NCBI GenBank assembly: GCA_030616165.1
Contig: JAUWXV010000038.1
Coordinates: 1-21,456 of the forward strand
Length of the DNA: 21,456 bases
Direction: 5' to 3'
DNA from: a bacterium
GTDB taxonomy: Bacteria > SM23-31 > JAUVVT01
Under the pieces are notes generated by a model. It worked only from the letters and a program-made list of their open reading frames with translations, did not search any database and had not been told where the DNA came from. Below, piece by piece: positions 5,821-16,113 of this stretch. Each line of letters begins with the position of its first letter. Position 1 is the first letter of the stretch. Both the position numbers and the translations under genes were made by a program.

Positions 5821-6669
5821 TCATCTTTTTGATAATTCTTCTTGTAACAGAAGAATAATTTCAGGTTGCAGAAATAATTTTTCTATTTTTACAGAAATAT
5901 CAGTTGGCAATTCAGGAAGTTCATATCTGGATATAATTTTTTGAGCCAGTTCGGTCTTCTCCAAAGCGAAATCTATATCATTTAAAGTACGTGCCTCCTT
6001 AAAAATCGACAATATCCTATCTTTTTCATTTTCTTCATCAATAATAAATCCCTTTGGTAAATGTTTCCTAATCACTTCAATGCCTTGCTGAACAAATGTT
6101 TCTTTCTTCTTTTCAAAAAGAGGTTCACGCATATTTCTGGTTCTGTTGAGCAATCTTTCAACACCTTTTGAATCCTTCACCTGTCCAATTCTACCAGCCT
6201 CCTCAGGTGGGATGAGACATGACACATATTGTTCTAAACTGTAGAGCTGGTGACCATATAATTTATTTTTTATAGAAACAGCGAGGTCAGTAATACTCTT
6301 ATCGCAATTGTCTTTCAGTTCTTTTATTAATTTATTACTTTTACGGACTTTTGTCTTTAAATCAGATGAAACTACTTTACCTTGGAGCAGATTCTCTCTT
6401 AAATCCTGTAAAACTGAAACAAATTCCGTTTCCTTTTCATGCCTCCTCATATAGTATTCTTCTCTTATTTCTGCTGCCTCTTTTGCTTTTTGGATAACGA
6501 ACTCTACCTGTTCATTATTTAGTTCAAGCCCATTTATTAGGTTAAGAAGTTGAATTTCTTTTTTTACCTTAGAAAAATGAACACCTTCAATGTCTGACCT
6601 GCCGAGGGCTCTTTGTGAAAAAGTGCAGTTTATCAATAGAATAACTATAATGAGAAATTTCACTTTCAT
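5821..6669 (-). CDS. Secreted helical protein of unknown function
   Basis: Encodes 282 residues. Residues 1-24 form a signal peptide (a basic KVK, then FLIIVILLINCTF, then ALG as a plausible signal peptidase I site). The cysteine at 15 follows asparagine, so a lipoprotein site is unlikely. The rest is rich in charged residues and predicted to be mostly helix, with an N-terminal part (NGLELNNEQVEFVIQKAKEA, then a run of E, K and R) that recalls Spy/CpxP-like or LTXXQ periplasmic helical proteins. I do not recognise a specific family. The ribosome site AAGGAGGT sits three bases before the ATG, which fixes the start. It lies downstream of the attC-like inverted repeat at 6726-6848 on the same strand. 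Confidence 0.7.
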   Translation of the reverse strand: MKVKFLIIVILLINCTFSQRALGRSDIEGVHFSKVKKEIQLLNLINGLELNNEQVEFVIQKAKEAAEIREEYYMRRHEKETEFVSVLQDLRENLLQGKVVSSDLKTKVRKSNKLIKELKDNCDKSITDLAVSIKNKLYGHQLYSLEQYVSCLIPPEEAGRIGQVKDSKGVERLLNRTRNMREPLFEKKKETFVQQGIEVIRKHLPKGFIIDEENEKDRILSIFKEARTLNDIDFALEKTELAQKIISRYELPELPTDISVKIEKLFLQPEIILLLQEELSKR

Positions 6670-6725
6670 GTTACCTCCTTATGATTGATTATCGATATTA
6701 AGGCACATACTTCAGGGACATAATA

Positions 6726-6848
6726 GCCTTGCGACTCAGCTGCCAAAACCGCTCGCACTGAAACTGAAACCTCAATTGACCCAAAATTTACCCTCAAAAA
6801 CTGAAAGAAAGCACAGCGGTTTTGGTCAGCTGCAGCCAGTAGTTAGGC
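6726..6848 (-). repeat. Imperfect inverted repeat, attC-like
   Basis: Two arms, about 6726-6753 and 6815-6848, share an exact 11-base core, CCAAAACCGCT (6743-6753) and AGCGGTTTTGG (6815-6825). CAGCTG follows on both sides, offset by one unpaired base, and the outer part is weaker. On the minus strand the element begins GCCTAAC (6848-6842), an exact match to the RYYYAAC box that opens an integron attC site. The other end, GCAAGGC, is a poor match to GTTRRRY. It follows the SnoaL-like gene on the same strand, the place a cassette recombination site would occupy. The hairpin is certain; the attC reading is inference. Confidence 0.5.
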
Positions 6849-6900
6849 CGGTAAATCTCAGATCCTTCAACCTGATTAGTTGACAATGGGTAAAAGATTA

Positions 6901-7887
6901 CTACCTGCCCTGCTCAGGCGGGGGAATAATGCCGACCTGTTGCATTACGCCCAAGCCATCTTTACTCCACCACCTTTCCACGACCTTGCCGTCTGCGAAA
7001 CGAGTGATATCTACCCCGTGAGCAGTTATTTGCTTTCCGGAGGCTGGGTTTATAAAGTCTGGAAAACGAGCTGTCCATAGGCATGCGACCTTATCCCCTT
7101 CAGCGATCAAGGCGTCAATCGTGAGCTTCGCAGGCAAGGAGTTAATGTTGAAAGCGACCCATTCTTTAGAGCTATCGAAATCGGTAACGTCGGGATAGAC
7201 AGGATCGTGGTTGACGAAGTTGGGGTGGATAATCTCGTCTACTTCGTCCAGGTTCCCCTGCTCGAACAGGGCAGCCTCCCGCATGTAAAGGGATTTGTTT
7301 GCCTCGGGGTCACCGGGGGCGCCGGTTACTGAAGATGCCTTACCCCACAGGAAATCCTCACCGTCGCGATCCATGGAGGGAGGCCCCCCGGACATCGGTG
7401 GGATAAAGCCGAGCTGCTGTCGGAGACCTAATTGGTCTGACATGCTCCATTCTTCCACGATTTTGCCGTCCTCGATGCGAGACCAGAGGATCCCTGTTAT
7501 CGTCACCTGACTACCGGTAGGTGGGATACCCTTCCACTTATCCTGGTTTGTGCCCCGAAACGTCCAGCGGCTTGCGACCATGTCTCCTTCGGCAATCATG
7601 TCCTCCATGGTGAAACGGACATCAGGGAACGCAGCCCGGAGGTCGGTGGCACCGTATTTGATGGTCTTCGTGCCGTACCTGTCGGAAGCACCCCACTGGT
7701 GGTGGGGATGGAGAACGTAGTCGGTAGCGTAAATCTCATCCGCTACGTCCAGGTTCCCCCGGTTAAAGATCTCCTCTAAGGCACGGGCGACGAGAGCCTT
7801 GTTCTCTGCAGTGATGTCAACTTTCTTAGCACAAGCGCTTATCATAAAAAAGGATACTCCTATGAATAATAGAAATAAGTTCTTCAT
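6901..7887 (-). CDS. Lipoprotein with two SnoaL-like (ester cyclase) domains
   Basis: Encodes 328 residues. The signal sequence ends in a lipobox, ISAC, with the lipidated cysteine at 19, so the mature protein should be anchored to a membrane. Two SnoaL-like domains of the NTF2-like fold follow, near residues 28-165 and 198-325. Each contains a similar order of motifs: a FNRGNLD or FEQGNLD element, DVADEIY or EVDEIIHPNFV, an IAEGDxVA strand (MIAEGDMVASRW, LIAEGDKVACLW), a DGKIVEEW or DGKVVERW strand, and a C-terminal GLRQQLGFIPP or GVMQQVGIIPP tail. The gene looks like an internal duplication. SnoaL-like proteins range from polyketide cyclases to small-molecule hydrolases and binding proteins, so the reaction is unknown. 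The AAGGAGGT site before the ATG is strong. GC content is high compared with the flanking spacers. Confidence 0.88.
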   Translation of the reverse strand: MKNLFLLFIGVSFFMISACAKKVDITAENKALVARALEEIFNRGNLDVADEIYATDYVLHPHHQWGASDRYGTKTIKYGATDLRAAFPDVRFTMEDMIAEGDMVASRWTFRGTNQDKWKGIPPTGSQVTITGILWSRIEDGKIVEEWSMSDQLGLRQQLGFIPPMSGGPPSMDRDGEDFLWGKASSVTGAPGDPEANKSLYMREAALFEQGNLDEVDEIIHPNFVNHDPVYPDVTDFDSSKEWVAFNINSLPAKLTIDALIAEGDKVACLWTARFPDFINPASGKQITAHGVDITRFADGKVVERWWSKDGLGVMQQVGIIPPPEQGR

Positions 7888-7985
7888 AGTAACCTCCTTA
7901 AATGATTATAGTTGTGATTTGATACCCTCCACTGACTTTTTACAGGTTATTGAGGTCTTAATATAGTTGAAAAATAAAAATTGCA

Positions 7986-8124
7986 TAACGAACATTGCTC
8001 GCCTGCCATCGGACGAAACGCACTATACATGCGGAACTAAAAAAACTAACCAAAATCTCTGAACGTCCCTGAACATGCGACAACGAGCCCGTCAGTTTCA
8101 GCAATTTGTCAGGCGACGTTCGGT
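7986..8124 (-). repeat. Second imperfect inverted repeat, attC-like
   Basis: Left arm CGAAC (7989-7993) plus TCGCCTG (7999-8005) pairs with CAGGCGA (8110-8116) plus GTTCG (8118-8122), leaving bulges of unequal length. On the minus strand the element begins ACCGAAC just after the DUF3795 stop codon and ends in CGTTATGC before the SnoaL-like gene. CGTTATGC resembles the right end of chromosomal-integron attC sites, and ACCGAAC differs from RYYYAAC at one place. Length, asymmetry and position downstream of a small accessory gene suit an eroded attC; direct proof is lacking. Confidence 0.45.
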
Positions 8125-8135
8125 ACATATCATAT

Positions 8136-8477
8136 TTAAAGACTTTTTTTTATTTCTTCAAGGGTTGGTTTTGCCTCAGGTGCCATTCCAAATATCTTAT
8201 CGAGTTTCTCACAAGGATACTCGTCACAATAAGCACAGTTTTTGATATTTTTCTCAAATCCACAACGTCTTACATCACAGGCACTGCAGAAATTGATTAG
8301 TCTTCCCCCTACAACGATACATCCATCGCAGTTAATGTCTTCAGGTTGAAGTTTTAGTTCCTCAGTGGTCCAGGATTCAGCAATCTTTTTCTTCTGCTCG
8401 TCATCATTTTCCTTTGTTGCAATAAATGCTGGACAACCAGTACAAGTAATCCCACAAACAGCAATCATTTTTTGCAT
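8136..8477 (-). CDS. DUF3795 cysteine-rich protein
   Basis: Encodes 113 residues with 11 cysteines (8, 12, 15, 50, 53, 64, 67, 72, 81, 84, 89). The pattern CGITCTGCPAF, then INCDGC, then FCSACDVRRC and CAYCDEYPCEKL, is characteristic of DUF3795. Members are thought to bind zinc or another metal; no reaction is known. I used the ATG at 8477, preceded by GAGGG; the next ATG at 8468 would also leave all motifs intact. It lies 110 bases after the aldolase/dehydrogenase gene on the same strand, with a RYYYAAC-like box (8573-8567) in between. DUF3795 genes are common in accessory regions, which agrees with the attC-like repeat directly downstream. Confidence 0.88.
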   Translation of the reverse strand: MQKMIAVCGITCTGCPAFIATKENDDEQKKKIAESWTTEELKLQPEDINCDGCIVVGGRLINFCSACDVRRCGFEKNIKNCAYCDEYPCEKLDKIFGMAPEAKPTLEEIKKSL

Positions 8478-8587
8478 GGTTTCTACCCTCTTTTCTTAAT
8501 GATAAAAATAAGTATCGAGAATGAAAAAATGGACATAAAGAACCTCAGCCCTTTTGTCAGTGACTTGTTAAATATGTTTCACACTGT

Positions 8588-12948: not shown

Positions 12949-13200
12949 ATGATAAGCCGATTTTATTTTGTTCAGAGATATAAACACTACAGTCCACGCA
13001 CAGAAAAAAATTACATTCAATGGATAAAAGATTATATTATTTTAAATTTTATTATGTGTATATATATGTCAACAATGATGCTAAATGGTTTGATTTATAA
13101 AAGCTTGTGGCAATATATAATATGGAGGCAAAGCAAATATATATTTTGTTTTTTAATAAATTGGATAAATTCTTTGACTTATATTTCCACTGTCTATTAA
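12949..13200 (+). pseudogene. Tyrosine integrase N-terminal remnant
   Basis: Codons from 12973 to 13047 read QRYKHYSPRTEK then NYIQWIKDYIILN. This is the start of the SAM-like core-binding domain of integron-type or Xer-type tyrosine recombinases, where R-x-x-HYS-x-RTE-x-x-Y-x-x-W-x-x-x-x-I is conserved. After that the reading frame loses similarity, consistent with frameshift decay, and stops at 13200. A second frame around 13109-13180 has a weak integrase-like pattern that I would not rely on. No catalytic domain follows on this strand. It is not a working gene. Confidence 0.65.
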
Positions 13201-13429: not shown

Positions 13430-13627
13430 TTACGGAGTAAGATGATAATATATCATAGTCATTTGTATTGAAGAGTGACCGAGAAGTTTCTGAACATAAG
13501 GTAGAACCACACCAGATATAACAAGATTAGAAGCGAATGTATGGCAAAGTGTATGGATTGTTCTATTTGGGATTTCAATTATTTTTAATAAGTTTACCAA
13601 TTTATTTCGTATATGAAGCGTTCGGTT
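13430..13627 (-). pseudogene. Tyrosine recombinase C-terminal remnant, catalytic Arg lost
   Basis: The minus strand from 13627 to the TAA at 13430 reads as the C-terminal end of a phage/Xer-type integrase: IHTLCHTFASNLVISGV, then LPYVQKLLGHSSIQMTMIYY and HLTP. The family motif here is H-x-L-R-H-T, with arginine and histidines in the active site, then LGH and a tyrosine nucleophile. The arginine is cysteine (TGC), one base from CGC, so the enzyme would be inactive. An in-frame TGA at 13628-13630 removes the rest. It is on the strand opposite to the N-terminal remnant at 12949, so the two are not halves of one gene in their present arrangement. Confidence 0.8.
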
Positions 13628-13851: not shown

Positions 13852-16113
13852 TTATGGTGGAGGTATCCCAGTCCCTGATACACTCACAATCACCTGCGGC
13901 TCATCTGAATCATTACTGTTAATTACAATGTTACCACTGTAACTCCATTCCTCAGAGGGTGTAAATGTCACTGTCACAACCTGGCTGTCATTTGCCGAAA
14001 CCGTAAAAGCAGTAGATTTATCCACTGTAAAACCTTCAGGTGCAGTAATACTGCTCACATTCAATACAGCCGTACCAGTATTTCTGATGGTAAATGTCTT
14101 CTGGGAAGATGTATTCACTATCACACTACCAAACGATAACGAAGCAGGCAATACTTCTATCTCAGGTGCTAGTAGAAGTGACCCTATCCCGGATACATTC
14201 ACAGTCACCTGCGGCTCATCGGGGTCATCGCTGTTAATTGTAATGTTACCACTGTAACTTTTTACAGCAGTGGGTGAAAATGTCACTGTCACTATCCGGT
14301 TGCCATTTTCAGAAACCGTGAAACCAGTAGATGGATGCACCGTAAAACCATCAGGCGAAGTAATGCTGTTTACGTTCAATAAAGCCGTACCGATATTTCT
14401 GATAGTAAATGTCTTCTGGGAAGATGCAGACACTGTAACACTACCAAACGATAACGAAGCAGGCAGTACTTCTATCTCAGGTGCAGGTACCCCTGTCCCT
14501 GATACACTCACAATCACCCCCGGCTCATCTGAATCATCATTGTCAATTATAATGTTACCACTGTAACTTTTTGCAGTAGTAGGTGAAAATGTCACTGTCA
14601 CAATCTGGCTGTCATTTTCAAAAACCGTAAAACCAGTAGATTTATCCACTGTAAAACCTTCAGGTTCAGTAATTCCGCTTATATTCAATACAGCCGTACC
14701 GATATTTCTGATAGTAAATGTCTTCTGGGAAGATGCAGAAACTGTAACACTACCAAACAATAACGAAGCAGGCAGTACTTCTATCTCAGGTGCAGTTACT
14801 CCTGTCCCGGACACACTCACAATCACCTGCGGCTCATCGGGGTCATCACTGTTAATTGTGATGTCACCACTGTAACTTCTATCATCAACGGGTGAAAATG
14901 TTACTGTAACTATCTGGTCACTATTTTCCGGAACCGTAAAACCAGTAGATTTATCCACTGTAAAACCGTCAGGTGCAGTAATGCTGTTTACATTCAATAC
15001 AGCCGTACCGGTATTTTTGATAGTAAATATCTTCTGGGAAGATGCAGACAATGTCACACTACCAAACGATAACGAAGCAGGCAGTACTTCTATCTCAGGT
15101 GCAGGTACCCCTGTCCCGGATACACTCACAATCACCTGCGACTCATCGGGGTCATCACTGTTAATTGTAATGTTACCAATGTAACTTTTTACATCAGTGG
15201 GTGAAAATGTTACTGTCACTACCTGGCTGTCATTTTCCGAAACCGTAAAAGCAGTAGATTTATCCACCGTAAAACCATCAGGTGCAGTAATTCCGCTTAT
15301 ATTCAATAAATTCGTACCAGTATTTCTGATAGTAAATGTCTTCTGGGAAGATGCAGACACTGTCACACTACCAAACGATAACGAAGCAGGCAATACTTCT
15401 ATCTCTGGTGCTGGTGCAGGTGCCCCTGTCCCTGATACACTCACAATCACCTGCGGCTCATCTGAATCGTCACTGTTAATTGTAATGTTACCACTGTAAC
15501 TTTTTATATCAGTGGGTGAAAATGCTACTGTCACTACCTGGCTGTCATTTGTAGAAACCGTAAAATTAGTAGATTTATCCACCGTAAAACCATCAGGTGC
15601 AGTAATGCTGCTTATATTCAATACAGCCGTACCAGTATTTGTAATAGTAAATGTCTTCTGGGAATATTCAGAAACTGTCACAATATCAAACGATAACGAA
15701 GCAGGCAAAACTTCTATTTCTGGCTCTGGTAGTATCAGGACTACATTTATAGAAACCGTATTAGACCACTTACTATCTACATACTCTTGACTTTCGGAAA
15801 CTGCCATTGCACGGTAATAATAAGTTGTTGCTTCCTTGAGATTAGGATGAGAAATTGTGATTGAAGTTAATTGTGTATCCCAAAACTCAAATGGTTCAAA
15901 TGAAGTATTTTCGGACTCATGAACTGTAAAAAAACCTCTTCCCGTAACATCGTTCCACTTAATCGTATATTCCTGCCCGGTAAGAACATCATTACCAGGA
16001 TTTTCAACCAAAGGGGCTTTTAGGGGCGTAGGGGGACCTGGGGGACAACCTTCCCAAAAAATTGAACAACCTAATAAAACTATAAGAAAAATTGAATATG
16101 TAGTTCTTTTCAT
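13852..16113 (-). CDS. Lipoprotein with six ASH/choice-of-anchor D repeats
   Basis: Encodes 753 residues. A lipoprotein signal ends LLGC with cysteine 16 as the likely lipidated residue. Residues about 32-128 resemble a fibronectin type III-like module (YTIKWNDVTGRG, ATTYYYRAMAVSES, KWSNTVSI). From residue 131 six copies of a ~104-residue unit follow. Each opens PEIEVLPASLSFGSVTVS, continues SQKTFTIRNTGTAVLNI, then GFTVDKSTGFTV and VVTVTFSPT, and ends INSDDPDEPQVIVSVSGTG. This is the choice-of-anchor D / ASH-type immunoglobulin-like fold found in surface and secreted proteins. No export-sorting domain follows; the protein ends GTGIPPP just before a broken seventh unit, so the present C-terminus is probably a truncation. 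GGAGGT six bases before the ATG supports the start. Likely a surface or periplasmic scaffold or adhesion protein. Confidence 0.9.
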   Translation of the reverse strand: MKRTTYSIFLIVLLGCSIFWEGCPPGPPTPLKAPLVENPGNDVLTGQEYTIKWNDVTGRGFFTVHESENTSFEPFEFWDTQLTSITISHPNLKEATTYYYRAMAVSESQEYVDSKWSNTVSINVVLILPEPEIEVLPASLSFDIVTVSEYSQKTFTITNTGTAVLNISSITAPDGFTVDKSTNFTVSTNDSQVVTVAFSPTDIKSYSGNITINSDDSDEPQVIVSVSGTGAPAPAPEIEVLPASLSFGSVTVSASSQKTFTIRNTGTNLLNISGITAPDGFTVDKSTAFTVSENDSQVVTVTFSPTDVKSYIGNITINSDDPDESQVIVSVSGTGVPAPEIEVLPASLSFGSVTLSASSQKIFTIKNTGTAVLNVNSITAPDGFTVDKSTGFTVPENSDQIVTVTFSPVDDRSYSGDITINSDDPDEPQVIVSVSGTGVTAPEIEVLPASLLFGSVTVSASSQKTFTIRNIGTAVLNISGITEPEGFTVDKSTGFTVFENDSQIVTVTFSPTTAKSYSGNIIIDNDDSDEPGVIVSVSGTGVPAPEIEVLPASLSFGSVTVSASSQKTFTIRNIGTALLNVNSITSPDGFTVHPSTGFTVSENGNRIVTVTFSPTAVKSYSGNITINSDDPDEPQVTVNVSGIGSLLLAPEIEVLPASLSFGSVIVNTSSQKTFTIRNTGTAVLNVSSITAPEGFTVDKSTAFTVSANDSQVVTVTFTPSEEWSYSGNIVINSNDSDEPQVIVSVSGTGIPPP
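13855..15715 (-). repeat. Tandem ~310-base coding repeats
   Basis: Six direct repeats of about 309-318 bases make up most of the lipoprotein gene. A landmark such as CCAAACGATAACGAAGCAGG recurs near 14129, 14441, 14752 (one base changed), 15062 and 15371, with a degenerate copy near 15687 and another in the broken unit near 13811. The high DNA similarity between copies suggests recent duplication or gene conversion, and the array is likely prone to copy-number change. Confidence 0.85.

Follow-up and report, generated by a model that had tools for sequence, protein, structure and literature searches.

The minus-strand segment 8114-6718 of the window, the window being the whole 21,456-nt stretch of DNA that was analysed, is very probably a decayed two-cassette CALIN, in which a DUF3795 cassette and a SnoaL cassette were inserted by IntI-type recombination. 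A CALIN is a cluster of attC sites lacking an integron integrase, as delineated by IntegronFinder (PMC9024848; PMC8618304). The element itself is of an already known kind, and the lineage in which it is found here is poorly sampled. The window constitutes one contig (C260, GC content 39.1%) of a 3.74-Mb, 343-contig genome that is 90% complete, and the class to which the host belongs comprises six genomes in total. The contig could be misbinned; the listed contamination is 1.6%. Two attC sites, termed attC-1 and attC-2, are located 1.1 kb apart with no accompanying intI, as in a CALIN, for which the usual definition asks for two or more attCs separated by less than 4 kb and no intI; this assignment hinges on accepting attC-1, though this site is detected by no covariance model. 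A complete integron is recognised by an intI gene with an IntI-specific domain, and no such gene is present in the assembly.

Putative cassette genes

Both putative cassette genes are encoded on the minus strand. The first (8136-8477) specifies a 113-aa DUF3795 protein (Pfam PF12675, E=3.3e-18) and has its stop codon 21 nt ahead of attC-1, whilst the second (6901-7887) specifies a 328-aa lipoprotein-like protein with tandem SnoaL domains (Pfam SnoaL, E=1.2e-55) and is followed by attC-2. Each attC is found close behind a stop codon and in the orientation of the gene, which bears out the proposal of the first-pass annotation that these are same-direction cassette genes. Measured from R' to R', the SnoaL cassette spans 1,265 bp. 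Its gene is foreign-looking in composition when set against the window, with a GC content of 53.7% and a GC3 of 62.9%, the highest among 17 genes checked (GC3 of 18-48% in the others). No report of DUF3795 genes in cassettes was found in the literature consulted. Directly after attC-2 there is a 282-aa open reading frame (5821-6669, minus strand; GC3 26.9%) that has no Pfam match and no attC behind it. Elsewhere in the window, a 753-aa protein (13852-16113, minus strand) is built from repeats of some 100 residues each (EIEVLPASLSFGSVTV...) following a lipoprotein-like start.

The attC site following the SnoaL gene

For the construction of attC covariance models, IntI proteins from plasmid, phage and viral-contig records were aligned and 80 IntI-bearing loci from a wide range of phyla were collected. 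A script employing R boxes, pairing and stem recovered 86 attCs in canonical orientation from these loci. Model R1 was composed of 21 short attCs, R2 of the 96 matches of R1 in the IntI loci, and R3 of 150 matches, with relatives and this genome included and the window excluded; training attCs were taken from IntI-bearing or attC-rich loci. The structure of the model covaries, with 89% of cells paired compared with 65% when shuffled and two-sided changes in 18 of 22 pairs. Such models had been suggested at first pass as a check on the cassette reading, and with those built here the outcome is divided: attC-2 (6848-6718, minus strand) is the top match of the window in all three (R1, 12.2 bits, E=0.63; R2, 14.9 bits, E=0.12; R3, 19.7 bits, E=0.0082), whereas attC-1 is missed. 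At the scale of the whole genome, attC-2 alone has an E-value of 1.5.

The 131-nt attC-2 (6718-6848) is composed of an R'' box (GCCTAAC, 6848-6842), an L'' arm (6832-6815), an L' arm (6753-6737) and an R' box (ATTATGT, 6724-6718). The R'' box is a perfect match to RYYYAAC and is separated from L'' by the canonical spacing. The left half, GCCTAACTACTGGCTGCAGCTGACCA, scores 22.5 bits, a value reached by no match in 40 Mb of simulated sequence, and with a smaller training set its probability is 3.3e-8 per site. The two L arms form an exact 17-bp stem around a single bulged A at 6826, the extrahelical base typical of attCs, and an exact stem of at least 12 bp arose in only 4 of 20,000 shuffles. 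The GCCTAAC noted after the SnoaL gene is consequently a real attC R'' box. The R' side departs from this picture, as no GTTRRRY box pairs with R'': either ATTATGT, with three extra spacer bases, or GCAAGGC occupies its place. This mismatch is interpreted as decay, and attC-2 is classified as an attC remnant rather than an intact attC. The decayed R' box holds down the covariance-model score and also accounts for the right half of the site not being significant in a shuffle test. The fold z-score for 6720-6850 is -2.24; however, single-strand folding energy taken alone is weak evidence, too weak to decide such cases.

The attC site following the DUF3795 gene

The 132-nt attC-1 (7983-8114, minus strand) has its R'' box, GCCTGAC, at 8114-8108 and its R' box, GTTATGC, at 7989-7983. 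The two are canonically spaced, GCCTGAC carrying one mismatch, and the L stem between them is damaged, with 3 of 6 core pairs retained by inspection of the aligned arms. The site is classified as an attC remnant. The left half at 8114 (p=3.5e-6) is surpassed by only one other in the window. The best right half from 8114 ends at CGTTATGC, position 7983, again at the canonical distance (conditional on the left half, p=0.003), and this same ending, already remarked on at first pass, is the R' box of attC-1. The R'' box initially assigned to this middle spot, ACCGAAC at 8124-8118, has a left-half p of only 6.8e-3 and is replaced by GCCTGAC, 10 nt downstream; an attC is thus present where one had been placed, but with a different R'' box.

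The weakness of attC-1 invites an alternative in which only 6848-6718 is an attC, the spacer behind the DUF3795 gene resembling one by chance, and the SnoaL gene is a lone cassette at a secondary insertion site. No covariance model finds attC-1, the best model score across its stretch being 2.8 bits, its fold z-score of -0.24 (7983-8114) is no better than that of shuffles, and a left half of its quality, considered alone, is expected 0.15 times per window. This scenario is nevertheless judged quite improbable, given the significant and canonically spaced right half and the requirement of a SnoaL cassette for an upstream R' box, which GTTATGC provides. Further evidence against it comes from whole-length comparison with an undecayed attC of the same genome (contig C233, 6289-6422), which scored 45.7 bits with R2 before any sequence from this genome had entered a model. 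When this attC was aligned globally to every 132-nt stretch on both strands of the window (42,648 placements), attC-1 ranked first (8114, minus strand; 98.5) and attC-2 second (6848, minus strand; 97.0), the next scores being 74 for attC-2 read on the opposite strand and 71 for the best remaining separate location, and 1,000 shuffles per site reached a maximum of 70. Over 122 aligned columns, attC-1 is 68% and attC-2 69.7% identical to it. A length of 131-134 nt is common to the four long attCs of the genome, namely attC-1, attC-2, the C233 site and a site on contig C24 (C24:5127).

A second alternative is that both elements are unrelated inverted repeats, either transcription terminators or a MITE-like repeat, that mimic attCs. 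Their location just downstream of genes and their modest fold z-scores would suit this explanation, which is nonetheless extremely improbable: the stem is followed by no T-run, there is no Rfam match, BLASTN of both elements against their own genome returns only the self match, the R''/L'' sequence and the position of the bulged A agree with attC, and like elements with full attC scores, up to 66.6 bits, stand behind other genes of the genome. A further search of the genome yielded 42 weak BLASTN matches, mostly in an AT-rich tail. An exact pattern scan of viral contigs for the left arm of attC-2 found no copy.

The array had originally been drawn with three sites, and all three RYYYAAC-like boxes do exist in the sequence at the positions reported. 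The third, ATTTAAC (8567-8573, minus strand), behind the aldolase gene, is not supported as an attC. It is an R''-like box only, with neither stem nor right half, a left half not beyond chance (p=6.5e-4 per site) and a fold z-score of +0.25. The remains of a cassette array therefore comprise the SnoaL and DUF3795 sites, oriented as first described, without the aldolase site.

attC sites and integrases beyond the window

The expectation that the same elements would be found beside other genes of the assembly proved correct. With R3, nine further attCs were identified at E<0.01 on five other contigs, three each on C233 and C311 and one each on C204, C24 and C172, the best attC-model score in the genome being the 66.6 bits mentioned above. 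Some of these attCs follow defence-like genes: a SIR2-like gene on C311 (L181, 5213-7796), a TIR-domain gene on C204 (L180, 14330-15494) and, on C172 (L182, 4086-5005), a gene for a DEDDh exonuclease with a BRCT domain (PADLOC PDC-S48, E=1e-34). These three are possible defence cassettes.

An intact intI, by contrast, which had been named as something to look for, is absent from the assembly, where only XerC and XerD were encountered. Neither the 90%-complete assembly nor the class yielded a protein above the curated IntI cut-off (TIGR02249, 265 bits), and XerD and XerC are the best matches within this genome. Training IntIs score 420-509 bits, and the same search did recover IntI from two other genomes (448 and 472 bits). 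Amongst 60 genomes searched, 18 contain attCs at E<0.01 and only one of these 18 contains an IntI at E<1e-40, in keeping with published observations that CALINs are more widespread than intI (PMC8618304, PMC9668308). Six of the genomes (G005, G006, G032, G036, G050 and G052) harbour 4 to 20 attCs each at E<0.01 with no IntI at E<1e-40; in G032, contig C126 carries four attCs together with an IntI-like N-terminus near the contig end (L218:219-142). As attCs are distributed over at least five other contigs and in three of the five class mates, with no IntI found in the class, any continuing capture would need an IntI supplied in trans or another recombinase. That cassettes do keep entering this intI-less lineage, whether in trans through a transient or mobile IntI or through another recombinase, is a tentative proposal and an unlikely one.

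Tyrosine recombinase fragments

The integrase scrap reported at 12973-13047 does exist, as a 31-codon N-terminal fragment of a tyrosine recombinase (12958-13050, plus strand), RYKHYSPRTEKNYIQWIKDYI, which is IntI-like over about 24 residues. Its identity to IntI N-termini is approximately 40-67% over 21-35 residues, its PF13495 score of 24.5 bits falls below the cut-off of 27, and it has no second copy in the genome. The identity of this fragment is ambiguous. As it is IntI-like over so few residues and is located 4.8 kb away beyond metabolic genes, it offers no proof that an integron stood here. A second fragment, not mentioned at first pass, derives from the C-terminal part of a tyrosine recombinase (13436-13615, minus strand; PF00589, E=5e-11).

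These fragments raise the question of whether the array was once part of an integron with an intI in this window, since decayed to the remains at 12.96-13.62 kb. In favour of this, the N-terminal fragment attains 63-67% identity to IntI N-termini over 22-30 residues. Against it, that fragment is under the Pfam cut-off, the C-terminal fragment is on the other strand and has as its nearest relative a non-IntI recombinase fragment from contig C53 (49%, 2e-18), with every IntI ranking lower, and three metabolic genes and an unrelated open reading frame intervene between the fragments and the attCs. Such an origin is accordingly doubtful, and neither the length nor the arrangement of the fragments suits them to the role of the missing intI.

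Proposed origin and present state of the array

The substrates that IntI recombines are attC, as a folded bottom strand, and an attI or, in rare cases, another GTT site; in the light of this activity, the DUF3795 and SnoaL genes are interpreted as two tandem cassettes. In the preferred reading, that of a decayed CALIN, the two would have entered in tandem behind a sugar-metabolism operon. IntI, the presumed agent of both insertions, would have cleaved attC at the R box on its folded bottom strand and joined it to a receiving GTT site. The enzyme may have acted in trans, may since have been lost, or may be encoded outside the sequence captured by the 90%-complete assembly. The DUF3795 cassette has no recognisable left border, neither an attI nor an R' box upstream of 8477, and inspection by eye revealed no attI site; apart from the GTT core, attI sites are not known to share a general consensus. 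The six genomes of the class offered no relative with an empty site, and in none of them is a close copy of the adjacent aldolase gene retained.

Following insertion, both attC sites presumably decayed. The conserved GTT is gone from the R' box of attC-2, and part of the L stem is missing from attC-1; to judge from these sequences, efficient recombination at either site is now unlikely and the two-cassette array is probably frozen. Both cassette genes, DUF3795 and SnoaL, are probably retained for what they themselves do.

Relation to known systems

With this locus, the lineages known to carry integron cassettes come to include a sparsely sampled bacterial one, and the DUF3795 and SnoaL genes are marked as probably acquired. 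The locus also illustrates that partly decayed attCs, although below covariance-model thresholds, can be recognised through a relative in the same genome. In common with CALINs in general, the locus has two or more attCs within 4 kb of each other, which share the orientation of the short genes that precede them, with no intI nearby, and exhibit the R''/L''/L'/R' layout and extrahelical A. Unlike a typical CALIN, there are two sites only, both partly decayed and one under the detection limit of covariance models, and the host lineage is represented by six genomes. Sedentary chromosomal integrons possess long, VCR-like attCs of about 120-135 nt, which the attCs described here (131-134 nt) resemble in length; the present array differs from these integrons in having no integrase, no recognised attI and no long array. 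Archaeal and bacterial CALINs have been described from metagenome-assembled genomes (MAGs), where uncultured lineages with fragmented assemblies carry clusters of attCs that mostly lack an IntI (PMC9668308). The attCs reported here, judging by gene content, belong to a different, bacterial lineage, but they likewise form an attC cluster without IntI in a fragmented MAG of an uncultured lineage.
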